Below, piece by piece: positions 11,769 through 21,169 of a DNA stretch of 24,638 bases. Each line of letters starts with the position of its first letter. Within the stretch, counting starts at the first letter, position 1. The DNA is taken from IMG/VR virus record IMGVR_UViG_3300005253_000231, positions 1 to 24,638 of that record; one strand, given 5' to 3'. A model generated the notes under the pieces. That model searched no databases. It saw only the letters and a list, made by a program, of their open reading frames with translations, and had not been told where the DNA came from. Source of the stretch: a virus. The position numbers and the translations under genes are program-made.

Positions 11769-12309
11769 CAATGCAATTGTCCACGACTATGCCGCATAGT
11801 GAATCAGTGATATGAATGGCACCGAAAATAAATATCTTTCTTATCTCAATCTCTTTCCCGACCTTTAGCCCTGGATGATTCCAAGCAAGTATTCCAAGGA
11901 ACCCATACCTGGCACTACCAATCTTTGCTTCTCCGAACTCAAGCATATTGATTGAATTGCCGAGCCGAGTACGAACCCGCCTATCAATTCCGCATGTCGC
12001 AGTGATCGCGTTCGTTATCCCAACAGTGTTCGCAGTGGTGTCAATTGCGGTTATCGCTCCCCCGTCATGCATGATTGAATCGTCTTGCTCAATCTCACAT
12101 ATCTCACCGATAGTAAACTTCCCTGCGTCAGCAACACTCAAAGTTACGCCAGAAGAAACAACTGCTATCAACACAGATTCTTCGTTGGTGCTGTAGACCT
12201 TGAAACTACAGGTAGCTCCATCGTTGGTGAAGTCAATCGCGTTGTCCGTAAGGCGATCAACAGGTTTCTCCCATACGATGTTGCGACTTTTATTTATTGG
12301 AAATCCCAT
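11761..12309 (-). CDS. Unknown protein in the head-tail completion block
   Basis: This 182-residue protein, unrecognised as a whole, starts in a TAATG overlap with the stop of the Ig/repeat gene and has a good GAGGGA ribosome-binding site 5 bases upstream. The middle (about 45-105) looks like a beta module, VLIAVVSSGVTLSVADAGKF, then IGEICEIEQDD and ITAIDTTANTVGIT, a style common in small inserted domains of phage tail proteins. The C-terminal part (INMLEFGEAKIGSARYGFLG and HPGLKVGKEIEIRKIF) is also beta-rich. It lies between the connector/appendage genes and the head-tail joining protein, so a neck or collar role is plausible but unproven. Confidence 0.75.
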   Translation of the reverse strand: MGFPINKSRNIVWEKPVDRLTDNAIDFTNDGATCSFKVYSTNEESVLIAVVSSGVTLSVADAGKFTIGEICEIEQDDSIMHDGGAITAIDTTANTVGITNAITATCGIDRRVRTRLGNSINMLEFGEAKIGSARYGFLGILAWNHPGLKVGKEIEIRKIFIFGAIHITDSLCGIVVDNCIDV

Positions 12310-13619
12310 TAGCTTCCCTCACGCGAAAATGATTTCATGTCACCGCCTGTTGAATCCTCAATGTAGAATCTCCCTTCAACGGATAACTCTTCTTTAAGAG
12401 CTCCATCAATTGGACTCATTGAAGATAACTCACCCTCTACAGAATCAGAACTTGAAAGGCTCCCAGATACTGAAACATCTTCTGTGAGATTTCCTTCAAC
12501 TGAATCAGAAACTCTCAGCTTGCCTTCTATCGAATCAGCTGAGGAGAACTTCCCAGTAACTGACTCCTCACTATCCAAATCTCCCTCGACTGAATCAGAA
12601 GCAAATAGTCTCCCTTCCACAGCCTCGTGTTCTGAAAGGTGTCCATGAACTGCTTCCTCTGAGAACAAGTCACCATGAATGTCATGTGGGTCTCTCAGCG
12701 CAGGAATAAAACGGACATTGATTACATACGATTGAGTAGCAGAACCACCATGTTCGTCTGTAACTCTTACGGTTACTGCATGTTCTCCGAATTGTAATTC
12801 CGTTGGTGTCCAAGTGATTACGCCTGTCGCTTCAACAATGGTCATTCCAGCCGGGGCTACATCTAAGAAGAACCCAGTAATCTCTGACTCTATATCATCT
12901 GCAGTCGCATTGTAGACATACAGGACAAAAGTTTCACCTATCGTGATTGGAGTGCTCGTGAAAAATGGATCTGTAAACGCATCGACGTTGTACAAAAGTT
13001 CTGGAATAATAGTAAAGAAAAAAGTTTCTTTTGATGCGAATGCACGCTCTCGACCAGCGACTTCATCAAGGTATACTACAACCACATAGCATAGCGGAGA
13101 CTCTGCGTGTGCCGCCATATACGCTTTCGTTCCTGACAAAAGCCCAACCATCAATTGACCAAAGAAACCTTCGCCGTCGTATGGTTCAAAATGTCCTTGA
13201 TCAGCGTATGCTGGCATCGCTGCTGTTCCTAACCATGCGTCCCCGAAAAGAACCCCGTTGATAATGTTGTGCGAATCATCAGTGGGTCGCGGGTAATCAG
13301 GCCAGGTCGGATAATTAGCAAGTGAGAACGCACCAATCGAATCCCATAGTCCGTCAGGAACCAAAAGTCCTACCGCCATTGTCCATGTTTGATTCCATAC
13401 CCCAATATCAGCGTTAGTTCTAATCTTGAGTTTGATCCCGTTGAAAATACCAGCAGGGACAGCCCCTGGAGTAAATTTCAGATAGGCGAATTGGACAAAA
13501 TCGAGTTTAAACTGCCTACCTACCTCAAGCCGAACAGATTCCGGAACAGGAACACCGGTAGTAGTTCCAGCACTAGAATCATCTATGCCGAGAAGAGCTC
13601 TATGTATGAATATCGACAA
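12309..13619 (-). CDS. Virion surface protein candidate: unique N-domain, Ig-like domain and eleven decapeptide repeats
   Basis: The 436-residue protein has three regions. Residues 1-205 form an aromatic-rich domain I do not recognise (VWNQTWTMAVGLLVPDGLW..., DYPRPTDD...). Residues about 215-302 are an Ig-like domain of the bacterial putative-Ig type, with PAGMTIVEATGVITWTPTE and HAVTVRVTDEHGGSATQSY as signature strands. Residues 315-424 are eleven consecutive units of exactly ten residues, consensus [E/T/S/D/H]-G-x-[L/F]-x4-[S/A]-[V/I], with a twelfth degraded unit. Ig-like domains on phage heads and tails often bind host surface sugars, and the repeat block may form a stalk. The start is TTG 13619, with AAAGG about 9 bases upstream and no ATG nearby. 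It lies among head-tail connection genes, suggesting a neck or capsid appendage (inference). Confidence 0.82.
   Translation of the reverse strand: MSIFIHRALLGIDDSSAGTTTGVPVPESVRLEVGRQFKLDFVQFAYLKFTPGAVPAGIFNGIKLKIRTNADIGVWNQTWTMAVGLLVPDGLWDSIGAFSLANYPTWPDYPRPTDDSHNIINGVLFGDAWLGTAAMPAYADQGHFEPYDGEGFFGQLMVGLLSGTKAYMAAHAESPLCYVVVVYLDEVAGRERAFASKETFFFTIIPELLYNVDAFTDPFFTSTPITIGETFVLYVYNATADDIESEITGFFLDVAPAGMTIVEATGVITWTPTELQFGEHAVTVRVTDEHGGSATQSYVINVRFIPALRDPHDIHGDLFSEEAVHGHLSEHEAVEGRLFASDSVEGDLDSEESVTGKFSSADSIEGKLRVSDSVEGNLTEDVSVSGSLSSSDSVEGELSSMSPIDGALKEELSVEGRFYIEDSTGGDMKSFSREGS
12348..12677 (-). repeat. Coding tandem repeat, 11 units of 30 bases
   Basis: Codons 315-424 of the Ig/repeat protein form eleven in-frame 30-base units with no insertion or deletion, for example EGRLFASDSV, EGDLDSEESV, EGKLRVSDSV and SGSLSSSDSV. 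DNA copies are diverged at most positions, with recurring GATTCAGTTGAAGG-like cores at the unit boundary, so the period is held at protein level. Such constant-length units fit a repetitive beta structure. Confidence 0.85.
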
Positions 13620-14145
13620 CTCGTGAAACCTTTACTGGAACACCATGTTTATTCTTTTCAATTTTATGCGAACTCATTTCTTCGAATAAATCTTCAAGAT
13701 GCTCTCGATCATTTGCCTTCCATCTATGCTCTTCGGTATCCGGAAAATTCCATTGAGCCAACTCAATCTTATCACCGTTTAGCAGCACAATTTCATTCTC
13801 AATGAAGTGATTCATCATTCTGCCCCAGAGCCTTTGCTTTCTAGTTTCACCCCATGGAGCAAACCCCGGCATCGGCATAGCGATGAATCTATCTTTGACT
13901 TTCTGTAGCTCGTATATTGAAAAGATACCTTGAACCCTACCTTCATGATATACGACATAGGTTATAACATCGCTCCCGCTAGAGCGATGACACATAGTCA
14001 CTCCAGGTCGTTTATCTGCAATCTCCTTCAGAAGGAACTCTTGCATTCGAAAAATCGCTAGTCTCCGGTCTTCAGTGGGCGCTCTTGATATGTCAACGAG
14101 GCGACACTTCATCTCAGGAATGTCGAAAGCTGCTCCGCTAGACAC
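13600..14145 (-). CDS. Unknown protein, possibly GNAT-acetyltransferase-like, in the head-completion block
   Basis: I start this gene at GTG 14145, which has AGGA 6 bases upstream and overlaps the connector stop by 8 bases. An ATG further upstream (14232) would overlap the connector by 95 bases and has no ribosome-binding site, and ATG 14112 also lacks one. The product is about 181 residues. Visible order: a helix QEFLLKEIADKRPG, two strands around VITYVVYHEGRVQGIFSIYE, a proline/glycine-rich stretch MPMPGFAPWGETRKQRLWG followed by a helix MMNHFIENEI, then IELAQWNFPDTEEH and a charged helix, with a last strand VPVKVSRVVDI. This strand-helix order is reminiscent of GNAT acyltransferases, but I see no convincing acetyl-CoA loop, so the function is unknown. 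Confidence 0.7.
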   Translation of the reverse strand: MSSGAAFDIPEMKCRLVDISRAPTEDRRLAIFRMQEFLLKEIADKRPGVTMCHRSSGSDVITYVVYHEGRVQGIFSIYELQKVKDRFIAMPMPGFAPWGETRKQRLWGRMMNHFIENEIVLLNGDKIELAQWNFPDTEEHRWKANDREHLEDLFEEMSSHKIEKNKHGVPVKVSRVVDIHT

Positions 14146-14695
14146 GAGAAATCCTAAATTGATCGTAATGAATTGAAGCTCCAGAATCTTTGATGTCGTT
14201 CTTTCCAGGCTGGAAGTCCCCACGATTCTCATACAAGAATGCGATGTGCTTCAGCAACCCCAATTTCATTCCTCCAATGTACCTTTTCCCTGGATCAGTC
14301 GTAAACGTCGCCACAATCGCTCCGTTCCTGACATCGGTATCAGTAGGCCATTCCTGTGATTCCTTCAGGCGTACTTCTGACCATTGATGACCACGATTGA
14401 AATACCAAATTGATGTTGCTACGGCGACTGCTGAATCGTCGACAAGGTGTGTGATTGAAGTAACTGTGACAATCGGGGAACGATACAAGCATTGAAGTTC
14501 CACAAACTCGTCAACAGTTACTTTCCATGTACCGACGCTGAAGTCACGACTGGTGTATTTCTCACCAGCCGTGACAGCAGCTTTTAGATAGATCGCGAGC
14601 AACTCATTCTCAGCTCCAGAACGAACCTTCAGATGCTGCTTCACAACAGCAATATCGATCGGTGGATCACCCTCAGAGGTTCGTTCATAGAACAT
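14138..14695 (-). CDS. Head-tail connector (adaptor), HK97 gp6-like
   Basis: This adaptor protein binds beneath the portal as a ring and receives the head-closure proteins. The 185 residues show the family pattern: an early helix LKVRSGAENELLAIYLKAA (about 22-40), A-G-E-K-Y-T-S-R-D-F ending the helical pair, a beta section with YRSPIVTVTSITHL (about 72-85), VRNGAIVATFTTD, and a final helix LGLLKHIAFLYENRGD. It starts in a TAATG overlap with the preceding small gene, and its stop lies within the first codons of the next gene. Its position (after capsid, before closure proteins) agrees with the HK97-like plan. Length is slightly above the ~110-residue HK97 gp6, typical of related adaptors of 170-200 residues. 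Confidence 0.82.
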   Translation of the reverse strand: MFYERTSEGDPPIDIAVVKQHLKVRSGAENELLAIYLKAAVTAGEKYTSRDFSVGTWKVTVDEFVELQCLYRSPIVTVTSITHLVDDSAVAVATSIWYFNRGHQWSEVRLKESQEWPTDTDVRNGAIVATFTTDPGKRYIGGMKLGLLKHIAFLYENRGDFQPGKNDIKDSGASIHYDQFRISRV

Positions 14696-16891: not shown

Positions 16892-17908
16892 CTAAAGTAC
16901 CTCACGGATTTCTGAAAATCCCTTTTCCAGAGCATCCATCAAGGCTTTCGTTTCGTCCACCTCTTCCTTTGCAGGCTTCAGTGGCTCACGACTTCGAACC
17001 AAGTATCTCACGGCTGCCTTGCTAAACAAGCCAGTCGCTCGAAGCCTTTGCTCCAAGTCGCCGTCTTCCCAACTCTTCACTTCGTCAAGCCCATAGAAAT
17101 GAGCCGTCTCGAATGGAGAGTCAATATTCATCTTGGCGAGATATCGTTCAGCCTGAACAATCAACGCCTTCGTTTCTTCGCTCTCGTCCAGCTCCTTGAG
17201 TTCAAGTGATGCGTCTCTGACTGCTTGAGGAACAGCCACGAGCTTGCCGTCAAGAACATCGCCGATAAGAAATCGCTCGTCACCGCAAAGAAAAGCATGA
17301 GCTCCATTGCCAATGCGGAAAGGCATCTCGTCAATCCGTTTCCTGGCCTCAGCAGACTTGAACTCAAAGTCTGCGGGTGCGATATCAAGTTCGATGAAAT
17401 CATGAACTAGCCCCTTCACCTCTGTGATTGGCGCGTGCCTGTTCTTCGGCTCATCTACAATACTACCTTCGCCGATAATCGCTTTGTAGATATCACGAGT
17501 CGCCGCATTGACTCGATCTCTAACCGTACGGAAACCAATAGAGAAGTCAGTCAACACCCCCTGCTTCACCATCGAGTACAGCTCGCGACCACGCTTCGTC
17601 TCGAGGTTCACCTCGCCCTCAACCCACAGACCGATGGCGTCTTCCTTGACCTTGTCGATGGGGAATCCACCAACGGATTCTCCATGATTGTCACAGAGTC
17701 GAATCTGGCGATCGCCACGTTGCTTATGTTCAAGGATCGACTCCTTGAACGCACCAGGCATGAATCGGTCTGGCTTCCCATATCGACCGGGCTGGATATC
17801 GGGCTTCCAAGAAGCAAGATAACCACGAACGATCCCGACAGGAACACCATTACGAGTAACCTGAGCCCCGGTCTCAAGTACATCAGATGAAAACTTATAC
17901 TCAATCAT
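16892..17908 (-). CDS. Prohead protease, HK97 family (S78/U35-like), with C-terminal extension
   Basis: This serine protease is encapsidated in the prohead and removes the capsid delta domain during maturation. Key segments are IVRGYLASW, then FMPGAFKESI, the histidine motif LCDNHGESVGGF (His about 75) and VKQGVLTDFSIGFR with the likely nucleophile Ser about 123, spaced as in HK97 gp4-type enzymes. The protein is long (about 338 residues). After the protease core comes FLIGDVLDGKLVAVPQAV and a helical segment to MNIDSPF, a module I recall as recurring in longer phage proteases, then a charged helical tail. I chose ATG 17908 because AGGA sits 8 bases upstream. ATG 17914 is only 2 bases from it, and ATG 17944 lacks a Shine-Dalgarno and overlaps the previous gene. 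It precedes the capsid gene, as usual. Confidence 0.88.
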   Translation of the reverse strand: MIEYKFSSDVLETGAQVTRNGVPVGIVRGYLASWKPDIQPGRYGKPDRFMPGAFKESILEHKQRGDRQIRLCDNHGESVGGFPIDKVKEDAIGLWVEGEVNLETKRGRELYSMVKQGVLTDFSIGFRTVRDRVNAATRDIYKAIIGEGSIVDEPKNRHAPITEVKGLVHDFIELDIAPADFEFKSAEARKRIDEMPFRIGNGAHAFLCGDERFLIGDVLDGKLVAVPQAVRDASLELKELDESEETKALIVQAERYLAKMNIDSPFETAHFYGLDEVKSWEDGDLEQRLRATGLFSKAAVRYLVRSREPLKPAKEEVDETKALMDALEKGFSEIREVL

Positions 17909-17918
17909 ATTCATAATC

Positions 17919-18665
17919 CTAACGTGCCTCTGTGATAAATCCATCGAATGAAGATATTAAATCAATGTTCGTAGTACTTCCGATTAATTGCACCTTCAAT
18001 ATGCCTGGACCATGGAAAACCTTTGGCGGATTATACTCCCGTATCCACCGCTCGTCTGTAGTCACTTCGAAACTTTCCTTATTCGTCCATGCGGTACCGA
18101 ACACGGCGTTGACCGCTGGATCTTCCATCCACAGAACTTTCCCAGTCGCGCGCAACGCCACTCCAGCAGTCTTGATCAACGCCGCCCTGAGTTGATTGAT
18201 ATGCAAGATCATACGACTTGAGATCCCAAAGATCGTCATTTGAGTTTGACTATTTCCAGCGATTATTGCTGCGGTAATCGTAGAGTCTGGTGCGGCAGCA
18301 GTCGCAGTGATATGACCCACATTGAATCCAGTCGCACCCCAAACCAATCCTTTCATCCTGTAGATCATCACATACTCGTTCACAGTATTGACTGGAGTTA
18401 CTCCGTTAAGGATAACCGTTTCATATGTGTCAAAACGCGAGTCCCAAGATGTCAATCCTCGAATGAAAACTTCCTGTAACCCTAGGCCCGGAGAATCATC
18501 AGAAGGACTAGTAGAAACGAGAGAATGAATACGCGCCGCAGTCGGAGCGACTCAAACAATTGTTCCGCCTAGCGCAATGATGGCGACTGAAGCCCCATCA
18601 TGAACGTCAGTTGGAGCTGCGTCAAGATTATCAGTCTCTCCAAACTTGTTGATCGACCTATTCAT
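17919..18665 (-). CDS. Virion (probable head) structural protein interrupted by an in-frame TGA at codon 38
   Basis: From an ATG that overlaps the MuF stop (ATGA) the frame reads 37 residues (MNRSINKFGETDNLD..., ending LGGTIV), meets TGA at 18554-18552, and continues without another stop for 210 residues (VAPTAARIHSLVSTS..., ending FDGFITEAR). The only standard start after the TGA is TTG at 18455, which would discard 32 residues that look like conserved family sequence. The whole resembles a phage virion protein family I know by pattern: an N-terminus like NRSINKFGE, a central APTAAR-h-HSLVSTS stretch, NGTTPVNT-like repeats (here NGVTPVNT) and a GP-x-h-h-K-h-Q C-terminal strand. A tryptophan would fit the TGA position well, and TGG is one base away. 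Possibilities are readthrough, a nonsense mutation, two separate products, or a sequencing error. TGA is a normal stop elsewhere in this operon. Confidence 0.75.
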
Positions 18666-19828
18666 TTCTTTTTAATCTTGTTGATGATCCTATTAGGCGT
18701 TTGCGAAAGTAACGATTGGTGCCTCTTCTTCAATCTCTCAAGCTGGGTCTGTAAAGCTCTTTGACCACCAGTGTCTTTTCGCTTGAACGCTGAGGAGAAC
18801 TGTTTTTCAACACTGTCGATCTTCCGTTGTGAATTCGCCAGTTCCTTATCAAGTTTGTCAATTGGAACCTTACGAGTCTGAAATCCTTTCTTTATACCCT
18901 TCTTAGTTCGCCCTTTCGGTCGAGGAAAAGTGAAGCCCGGCGGCAATGGAACTGTGATGGTTGCGCCGACCGTTTCTGCTCCCTCTGGAGCGATTGCACC
19001 AAGGTCCTCCCTCTTGACCCGTCCCTTCCTGATCTTCGCGATCGCAACTCGATCATAGTAGGCAGAGCAACGACATCGCTGGATGTTGCCCTGCGAAGCT
19101 CCGAGGGAGAGATCCCCTGGAAAAAGTAGCTTTTCTCCGCTGACGTCAAATGGCTTATCCGGAAGACGAGCTTGTCCATCTGCTCTGAGATGATTGAATG
19201 CTCCAACTCTAACACGACTGTCTCCAAGTGAGTCCCATATCTTGATCTTCTTTTCGCCTGCTGCCTTTAGCTCCAGATCGGTTTCGTCACCGAGAAGGAC
19301 GGCTGCTTCCACGAGCTTCGCAAATTCCGCTGACCATTGCGTCTCATAGATAGAGATTCCGTGAGAGCGACCTGCAAGCATACGTTCAAGGTTTGCACCT
19401 GCAACTCCAGCAACCTGTCCACGTGAAGCAGTGGGGTGATCTCGTTGCGCACGTCCGATCGCTTGCTCAATGTTCTTTTGAGTCGTGCGAAGAATTCTCT
19501 GACTCTGATCATCTACCCGTTCCCCGTAATGGAAGCTCAACGTGCGATTTACGATCGCCGATTCTTCTCTCGTTATCCCTACCGCTTTCGGAAGCACACC
19601 CCGAATATCGTCCTTGAAAATGTTTCCGACTTTCCGATAATGCGGAGCGAGCATCTGTGGGATATCGTCTGTCCCTGTGACATCAAGTACCGATCCGCTT
19701 TCTCTATACCTTGCTTCAACCGAACGCACCACCTTCGTATTGAATCTCACCAACTTAGTATGAAGTTGAAGTTCAGCTGTCCGTTTCCTCCGAACGTCGA
19801 TCTGAGTTTGTCTTCGTGGCGCGGCCAT
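18662..19828 (-). CDS. MuF-type minor head protein
   Basis: This is the portal-associated minor capsid protein of the Mu gpF/SPP1 gp7 type, thought to help assemble proheads or be packaged with DNA. The 388-residue protein has a helical N-terminal half (about 1-190). The MuF C-terminal domain then shows KIWDSLGDSRVR (about 196-207), H213, LLFPGD (about 234-239) and the terminal NIQRCRCSAYY (about 248-258), in the order W, D-x-R-x-R, H, PGD, CRC that defines the family. The last 130 residues are a basic, proline-containing linker and a predicted coiled coil (about 310-375) ending KIKKK, which is an extension beyond the core domain. It follows the paralogue triplet by three bases, and its TGA overlaps the ATG of the next gene, which fixes that start. 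Confidence 0.9.
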   Translation of the reverse strand: MAAPRRQTQIDVRRKRTAELQLHTKLVRFNTKVVRSVEARYRESGSVLDVTGTDDIPQMLAPHYRKVGNIFKDDIRGVLPKAVGITREESAIVNRTLSFHYGERVDDQSQRILRTTQKNIEQAIGRAQRDHPTASRGQVAGVAGANLERMLAGRSHGISIYETQWSAEFAKLVEAAVLLGDETDLELKAAGEKKIKIWDSLGDSRVRVGAFNHLRADGQARLPDKPFDVSGEKLLFPGDLSLGASQGNIQRCRCSAYYDRVAIAKIRKGRVKREDLGAIAPEGAETVGATITVPLPPGFTFPRPKGRTKKGIKKGFQTRKVPIDKLDKELANSQRKIDSVEKQFSSAFKRKDTGGQRALQTQLERLKKRHQSLLSQTPNRIINKIKKK

Positions 19829-19831
19829 ATT

Positions 19832-20269
19832 TCACAGAAGCTCGTCAATGCCAAAGCTAACCTTAACGTCAGCCCCGTTGGTAGTTTTCCACATACTGAA
19901 GAATGCTCCAGGTGGAACAAAAATCCCACGAAGAGTGGCTACACCACGACTTTGATTTGCTCGCATAAAAAAGTGCTTAGGGCTTGTCGGGGCATTAATA
20001 ATCAATAGATGCCCTGGTCGAATAATTGTCTGTAGCGCGACTCCGGGCTCCGAAATTACGAGTGGCGTAATCGCTGCGTCCGGTTCGTCCATGTCAGGAG
20101 AAGCAGAGACATACCAAGCGTAATCGAACGAATCCATATCAAGCGTATGGATCATTACTCCACGGGAGCTAGCATGTGACGCGATGTCCAGACCTGCAAG
20201 CCGACCAACAATCCCAGTAAGATCAATCCCGCCAAAAATACGAATAAGGTTTCCGAAAGGGCGATTCAT
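19832..20269 (-). CDS. Unknown virion-region protein, paralogue C of a tandem triplet
   Basis: At 145 residues, this is the last gene of the triplet. It starts RPFGNLIRIF, carries SSRGVMIHTLDMD, then ALQTIIRPGH, FMRANQSRG, an LRGIFVPPGAFFSM segment and an ending SFGIDELL. The LQTIIR-x-G, R-x-NQ-x-R, PG and S-x-x-IDE positions line up with paralogue B. The first eleven residues also match paralogue A. Beta-rich composition with an FVPPG-type turn is common in virion proteins, but I know no family for it. It overlaps paralogue B by ATGA and stops three bases before the MuF-like gene, keeping it in the head-assembly block. Alternatives are a capsid vertex or portal-proximal decoration protein, or an injected internal protein. 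The sequence does not distinguish these. Confidence 0.83.
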   Translation of the reverse strand: MNRPFGNLIRIFGGIDLTGIVGRLAGLDIASHASSRGVMIHTLDMDSFDYAWYVSASPDMDEPDAAITPLVISEPGVALQTIIRPGHLLIINAPTSPKHFFMRANQSRGVATLRGIFVPPGAFFSMWKTTNGADVKVSFGIDELL

Positions 20270-20712
20270 GAGGCAACCTCGTCAATAATGGCTGAATAAG
20301 ACATTGCGGAATTTACGCTGCTGCGCAAAAACGTCAATGTCCATCCTGGTGCAATGAATAACGGGACCAAAGACCCATCAAACACCCTGCCTTGATTTGA
20401 GCGAATAATATAGTCACTTGCCCCAGGCAATGTCCCAGCAGAAATTCTACCTTGACGAATAATCGTTTGCAACGTATGGCCCGGAAGCGAAACGAACACA
20501 GGAGTGATAACAGTAATGTTCGCATTAATCAATGGAGAAGCATTAGCCGTTAGTGTCATTCCCAACGAAATGTCAGCATTATCGAACCGACTTACGAAGA
20601 GACCCTTTCCGTCAACATGGGCCTCAATTGAACATGCAGAAGTCTCTGCGATAGTTGCAGGCTCCTCAGAACTGAAAAAGAATCTCGCAAGATTTCCAAG
20701 AGGGTAAGACAT
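20266..20712 (-). CDS. Unknown virion-region protein, paralogue B of a tandem triplet
   Basis: At 148 residues, this is the middle gene of the triplet. It has YPLGNLARFF at the N-terminus, a G-K-G version of the RG segment (VDGKGLFVSRFDN), and then a central block shared closely with paralogue C: HTLQTIIRQGR, P-G-A-S-D, IIRSNQGRV, followed by PLFIAPGWTLTF and an ending S-x-x-IDEVA. The alternation of hydrophobic residues and absence of long helices suggest a beta-sandwich. Its stop overlaps the start of paralogue C by ATGA. All three copies have intact frames and a diverged sequence, so this looks like an old duplication retained under selection rather than a recent amplification. The function is unknown. 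Location between portal and minor head protein suggests a structural or head-assembly role. Confidence 0.83.
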   Translation of the reverse strand: MSYPLGNLARFFFSSEEPATIAETSACSIEAHVDGKGLFVSRFDNADISLGMTLTANASPLINANITVITPVFVSLPGHTLQTIIRQGRISAGTLPGASDYIIRSNQGRVFDGSLVPLFIAPGWTLTFLRSSVNSAMSYSAIIDEVAS

Positions 20713-20713
20713 G

Positions 20714-21169
20714 TTAATCCTTCGTCAATACGTCTATGATAAAACTACCTTCAAGCTCGTCAGTGACAGTAGTTTTAATGAACATGAGATAATACGTCGG
20801 CGGAACATACATCGGTGTGCGCGGACCCATTATAGAAGGGGAGATTGATGTATTATTATGCCTAAAAGGGCGATCACCTTCAAGTCTTGTATATCCACCG
20901 ATGACACGACCATGACCAAATATTCCAGCAGTATCGAAATTAGGATCTGACTTAAACTTCGGTGAGCCACTGATCGTGTTAGTAAGAAATGCACTGCTCG
21001 TTAGCTTAACGACTACGTCTACGATATCGGTGAAATCGTAATGATAAACAAGTATCCCACGCGAATCGCTCGGAGCAAAGAAAGAAATTCCAGCACTGGC
21101 TCCGACAGCATTATTATCAATAGAAGCCAACATAATTCGTACAGCAGAACCAAAAGGGCGAAGATTCAT
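20714..21169 (-). CDS. Unknown virion-region protein, paralogue A of a tandem triplet
   Basis: This 151-residue protein of unknown function is the most diverged of three consecutive related genes lying between portal and MuF. Features shared with the other two copies are the N-terminal P-x-G-x-x-x-R motif (RPFGSAVRIML), an S-R-G segment followed by an aspartate (SDSRGILVYHYDF), a central hxGRhxxG element (GHGRVIGG), an R-x-N pair (FRHNNTS) and an aromatic, proline-rich end (YVPPTYYLMF) before IIDVLTKD. Composition suggests a beta-rich soluble protein. There is no signal peptide or membrane segment. It starts in a TAATG overlap with the portal stop and ends one base before paralogue B, so the three genes form a coupled block. 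Position argues for a virion or assembly role (head decoration, portal-associated or internal protein), but I recognise no named family. Confidence 0.82.
   Translation of the reverse strand: MNLRPFGSAVRIMLASIDNNAVGASAGISFFAPSDSRGILVYHYDFTDIVDVVVKLTSSAFLTNTISGSPKFKSDPNFDTAGIFGHGRVIGGYTRLEGDRPFRHNNTSISPSIMGPRTPMYVPPTYYLMFIKTTVTDELEGSFIIDVLTKD

Follow-up and report, generated by a model that had tools for sequence, protein, structure and literature searches.

In-frame stop codons in described systems

UGA is the leakiest stop codon in bacteria (PMC5289835), and in Q-beta readthrough with insertion of tryptophan yields the A1 protein at about 1 in 15 (PMC8067240). For a TGA mutation in a prfB+ strain of B. 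subtilis a readthrough of 6% is cited in a study which also finds that single in-frame stops are widespread in bacterial genes, most frequently in the mobilome category (PMC7918605). Evidence for stop hopping comes from synthetic constructs, no natural case being known to the review describing it (PMC5009743). The DNA analysed here (the window) is a virus record of 24,638 bases, a single contig carrying tailed-phage structural genes on the minus strand, one of which is interrupted by a TGA. This gene belongs with PHROG 8198, a family of unknown function found in the head modules of tailed phages.

The interrupted frame

The in-frame TGA at codon 38 was confirmed, at the coordinates 18554-18552 proposed in the initial annotation, within the minus-strand frame 18665-17919 (Table 1). 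The start of this frame is fixed at 18665, as had been proposed, since its ATG overlaps the stop of the upstream gene as ATGA and since an in-frame TAA stands at 18674-18672. The full read-through product has 248 residues. The claim that no usable start follows the TGA before 18455 also holds, the first ATG, GTG or TTG being a TTG at that position with none in the 96 bases after the stop. Conservation sets in again no more than two codons after the TGA, and reinitiation downstream of it was therefore ruled out. The two sides of the stop form one protein, as had been suggested from the sequence: both are homologous to the same relatives over residues 3-247 at about 32-53% identity, and codon usage is gene-like before (score 0.44) and after (0.25) the TGA and negative in the other two frames.

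Table 1. Coordinates of the interrupted frame, its parts and its neighbours in the window.
Feature	Position	Strand	Remarks
Frame interrupted by TGA, 248 codons, ends TAG	17919..18665	minus	PHROG 8198-like, beta-rich, head-module accessory protein (likeliest role)
In-frame TGA, codon 38	18552..18554	minus	column TGG (Trp) in 43/43 homologous loci found
Pre-stop part, 37 residues	18555..18665	minus	first beta strand (residues 3-14, modelled) and NKFG motif
Post-stop part, 210 residues	17919..18551	minus	conserved to the end; 34/38 conserved positions kept
ATGA overlap, upstream stop and start of interrupted frame	18662..18665	minus	
In-frame TAA 5' of start	18672..18674	minus	rules out N-terminal extension
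Weak predicted hairpin beginning at UGA	18526..18554	minus	z = -1.5, not significant
Upstream head morphogenesis gene, TGA-terminated	18662..19828	minus	
Downstream head maturation protease frame	16892..17944	minus	real start probably nearer 17914

The window gives no sign of a changed genetic code. TGA terminates 15 of its 30 genes, TAG 8 and TAA 7; TGG occurs 81 times, and across 7,951 codons no in-frame stop other than the TGA at codon 38 is present. Because fifteen genes terminate at TGA and TGG is in regular use, a reassigned code is excluded, in agreement with the initial annotation, and genetic code 4 (TGA = Trp) was rejected on the same counts. A search of the window for tRNA genes, and hence for a suppressor tRNA, found none.

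Two further observations concern other frames of the window. The protein encoded at 12309-13619 (436 residues) ends in an array of imperfect repeats of about ten residues (e.g. SVEGDLDSEE and SVTGKFSSAD), and 95 bases (14138-14232) are shared by the listed frames 13600-14232 and 14138-14695, the downstream gene of this pair probably starting later than its first ATG.

Codon 38 in related genes

A first family alignment, which included remote relatives, had a gap at the TGA column and was uninformative until a pattern scan found the right subfamily. For that scan the sequence APTAARIH, which lies just 3' of the stop, was turned into a degenerate pattern and run over 2.9 million viral contigs, leaving the TGA codon itself unconstrained. 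The pattern covers all synonymous codons bar a few of arginine-like ambiguity, and a strain variant of the interrupted gene would match it if present among the scanned contigs. Of the 30 stretches returned, 27 encode homologues, and all 27 have TGG at the column. A second scan of the same contigs, in which TGG and TGA were equally allowed and the IH was not required, raised the set to 43 homologous loci of 32-53% identity, again with TGG in every one; its sole match with TGA was a non-homologous chance match. The comparison with related phages which the initial annotation had proposed for this codon thus gives TGG in all 43 loci and TGA in none, all of these relatives being distant (at most 53% identity).

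The motif around the column in the relatives is (I/V)W(L/V/I)APTAAR, and the tryptophan that marks this close subfamily is replaced by the stop in the window copy. All 41 aligned sequences have Trp at the column, as do all 33 that remain without near-duplicates; the two loci left out because of a large insertion (L134 and L137) have TGG too. Tryptophan, suggested initially as the residue fitting the position, is therefore what the family carries. The TGA, one transition away from TGG, replaces an invariant tryptophan and, among the relatives found, occurs in the window sequence alone.

Whole-protein searches returned no close relative in viral or genome contigs and none in plasmids. Phage records gave only remote relatives by protein search and no near DNA match, and a scan of genome contigs with the family alignment gave one remote relative. 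Across the viral, genome and plasmid collections and the phage records searched, no relative above about 55% identity was found.

Two observations on the relatives may be added. In L134:660-2003 and L137:781-2124 the large insertion lies between APTAARIH and the rest of the protein and gives a 448-residue frame. Several relatives in viral contigs, from the L042-L068 group (e.g. L044:4851-5708), L127 and L143, have an apparent secretion signal at the N-terminus (e.g. MKRAAAIILLCLFATAAHGQ), which is odd for a head-module protein.

Protein family and gene neighbourhood

The PHROG 8198 profile matches the read-through protein with 31.2 bits (E 2.7e-07; residues 4-241 to profile positions 53-256 of 262) and the post-stop part alone with 26.1 bits. 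The window gene sits between the head morphogenesis gene and the head maturation protease. Its relatives adjoin portal, protease or head-closure genes, the order in L127 being portal, relative, protease, and a remote cyanophage relative is annotated as a virion protein. The likeliest role that we infer from this setting is that of a head-associated accessory protein.

A structure model, for which the close subfamily was used, predicts a beta-rich fold with a mean pLDDT of 89; confidence is lower for residues 21-40 (block means 66 and 55). The model places the strand at residues 3-14 and the post-stop part in one beta-rich fold, and the 37-residue product is accordingly not predicted to be a domain. 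Comparison with solved structures gave no relative (TM below 0.3 by query length) and the PDB no sequence relative, while the best matches in a viral structure library are uncharacterised tailed-phage proteins with TM up to 0.82.

The gene shows no detectable decay. The post-stop part keeps 34 of the 38 strongly conserved positions, which is inside the range seen in similarly diverged intact relatives (L155 33/41, L143 33/40, L157 36/39), and no further stop or frameshift is present in the remaining 210 codons. The N-terminus of the window protein is 20-30 residues shorter than that of the relatives. The Trp of the subfamily motif D(I/V)W is His in the window protein, a change that looks like divergence of the lineage and not recent damage, since it needs three base changes.

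The nearest phage relative (L075), with a terminase 72-73% identical, has an unrelated 108-residue frame at the place of the interrupted gene. The gene was sought in contigs with the same module, identified through the capsid protein, the head morphogenesis protein, the terminase and the portal, and was found in none, several of these contigs being short enough that they may miss the interval. The gene thus appears to be accessory in this phage group. The initial description of a conserved virion gene stands insofar as the family is real and head-associated, but not as regards the gene's conservation among these phages. Given that L075 lacks the gene and that none of the other contigs sharing this head module yielded it, loss of the gene or a nonsense allele of it looks tolerable.

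The head morphogenesis protein of L075 (L075:5656-7905) has 749 residues, with a C-terminal part containing HEFAHH (zinc-peptidase-like) which the 388-residue window homologue (18662-19828) does not have. Two tandem small genes at window positions 19832-20712 both match the same two genes at the same place in L075 with 26-32% identity and hence look like paralogues, and the small gene beside them (20714-21169) has no match at that place.

Origin of the TGA

The best explanation, to which we give a probability of about 0.8, is an isolated single-codon change in which TGG, encoding an invariant tryptophan in an accessory head-region gene, has become TGA; it would be either a nonsense allele or a consensus error, the two other options of the initial annotation. 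That the phage carries a real nonsense allele, recent or segregating, has about even odds; a wrong base in the metagenome consensus is possible, with distinctly poorer odds. The change itself we infer to be recent. If the base is real, most ribosomes would stop after 37 residues and this fragment would be the main product, the 248-residue protein arising only through the background level at which tRNA-Trp misreads UGA in the host, to whatever extent such leakage occurs. This misreading would insert Trp, the family's own residue, at codon 38, which makes suppression plausible but not selected. The absence of decay, too, fits a tolerated, suppressed stop.

The next reading, in which misreading of the UGA by tRNA-Trp is frequent enough to be useful, yields products of 37 and 248 residues and supplies full-length protein at the low dose which the phage needs, appears unlikely. 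It draws on the leakiness of UGA and the Q-beta precedent, on the invariant Trp at codon 38, whose misreading would give the family residue, and on a downstream part which is intact and constrained. Position also speaks mildly for it: TGG to TGA makes up 8-19% of the ways in which a random nonsense change could arise in the interrupted gene, and that at codon 38 only 1.4-3.2%, so that such a change rarely falls where misreading by tRNA-Trp restores the exact residue. We judge this argument to be outweighed, since no other relative carries the TGA and the pre-stop product, with one strand of a shared predicted fold, is not a domain. The base after the UGA is G and not the A linked to tRNA-Trp misreading in E. 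coli (PMC5289835), and the predicted RNA structure at the UGA is only slightly better than shuffles. The two-product readthrough offered initially as one option is therefore unsupported as an evolved feature, with a stop in 0 of 43 loci, the RNA fold at z = -1.5 and G as next base. A wider form of the idea, in which the phage controls the dose of a head-region protein through a UGA where Trp is obligatory, a little full-length product coming from the host's tRNA-Trp or, with less likelihood, from a stop hop between the two Val codons, is a still longer shot; if true, readthrough of a stop codon would operate in a tailed-phage head module.

Hopping as such is very improbable. Here the peptidyl-tRNA(Val) would leave GUU and land on GUC past the UGA, giving a protein two residues shorter and without the Trp. 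One tRNA(Val) could read both flanking codons, but the family needs the Trp, V-W-V fits (I/V)W(L/V/I) without a hop, and in the other genes of this phage Trp commonly stands between identical residues (10 of 76). Equally remote are the other forms of recoding, namely reassigned TGA, selenocysteine or a +1 frameshift at UUUGA: the weak hairpin does begin at the UGA and GUU UGA loosely resembles the release-factor-2 shift site, but the counts given above speak against a changed code, the column is Trp in relatives and not Cys with no SECIS-like fold singled out, and homology stays in the same frame after the stop while the other frames are not coding by score. Programmed readthrough is possible but unsupported, and neither a conserved stop nor a suppressor tRNA in the window, a significant RNA structure or a frameshift speaks for programmed recoding.

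An isolated TGG to TGA change has two consequences, depending on its origin. If the TGA is real and tolerated, the gene offers a clean natural test of background UGA misreading, in which tRNA-Trp would insert the residue that is invariant in the family. More probably it is an error or a dead allele; in that case it shows that one base in a metagenome contig can mimic recoding. What is new here are the pattern scans revealing an invariant TGG column in 43 homologous loci; scanning viral contigs for a motif in this codon-neutral way answers most of the recoding question.

Comparison with known systems

With the PHROG 8198 family the window read-through protein shares a match over nearly the full length and the head-module position; the window copy differs from its relatives by the stop at the invariant Trp, the shorter N-terminus and the His in D(I/V)W. 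The coat/A1 gene of Q-beta is alike in having a UGA in a virion-type gene, with Trp as the residue that would be inserted. In Q-beta, however, the coat protein is already complete at the stop and readthrough adds a separate domain, whereas the window stop cuts one predicted fold near its start, leaving 37 residues with a single strand, and is not kept in any of the 43 loci compared. The isolated in-frame stops of prokaryotic genes (PMC7918605) differ in that the study rests on stops common to orthologues, while the window stop is in no relative; the likeness to them lies in a single nonsense codon within an otherwise intact and constrained gene of a mobile element.
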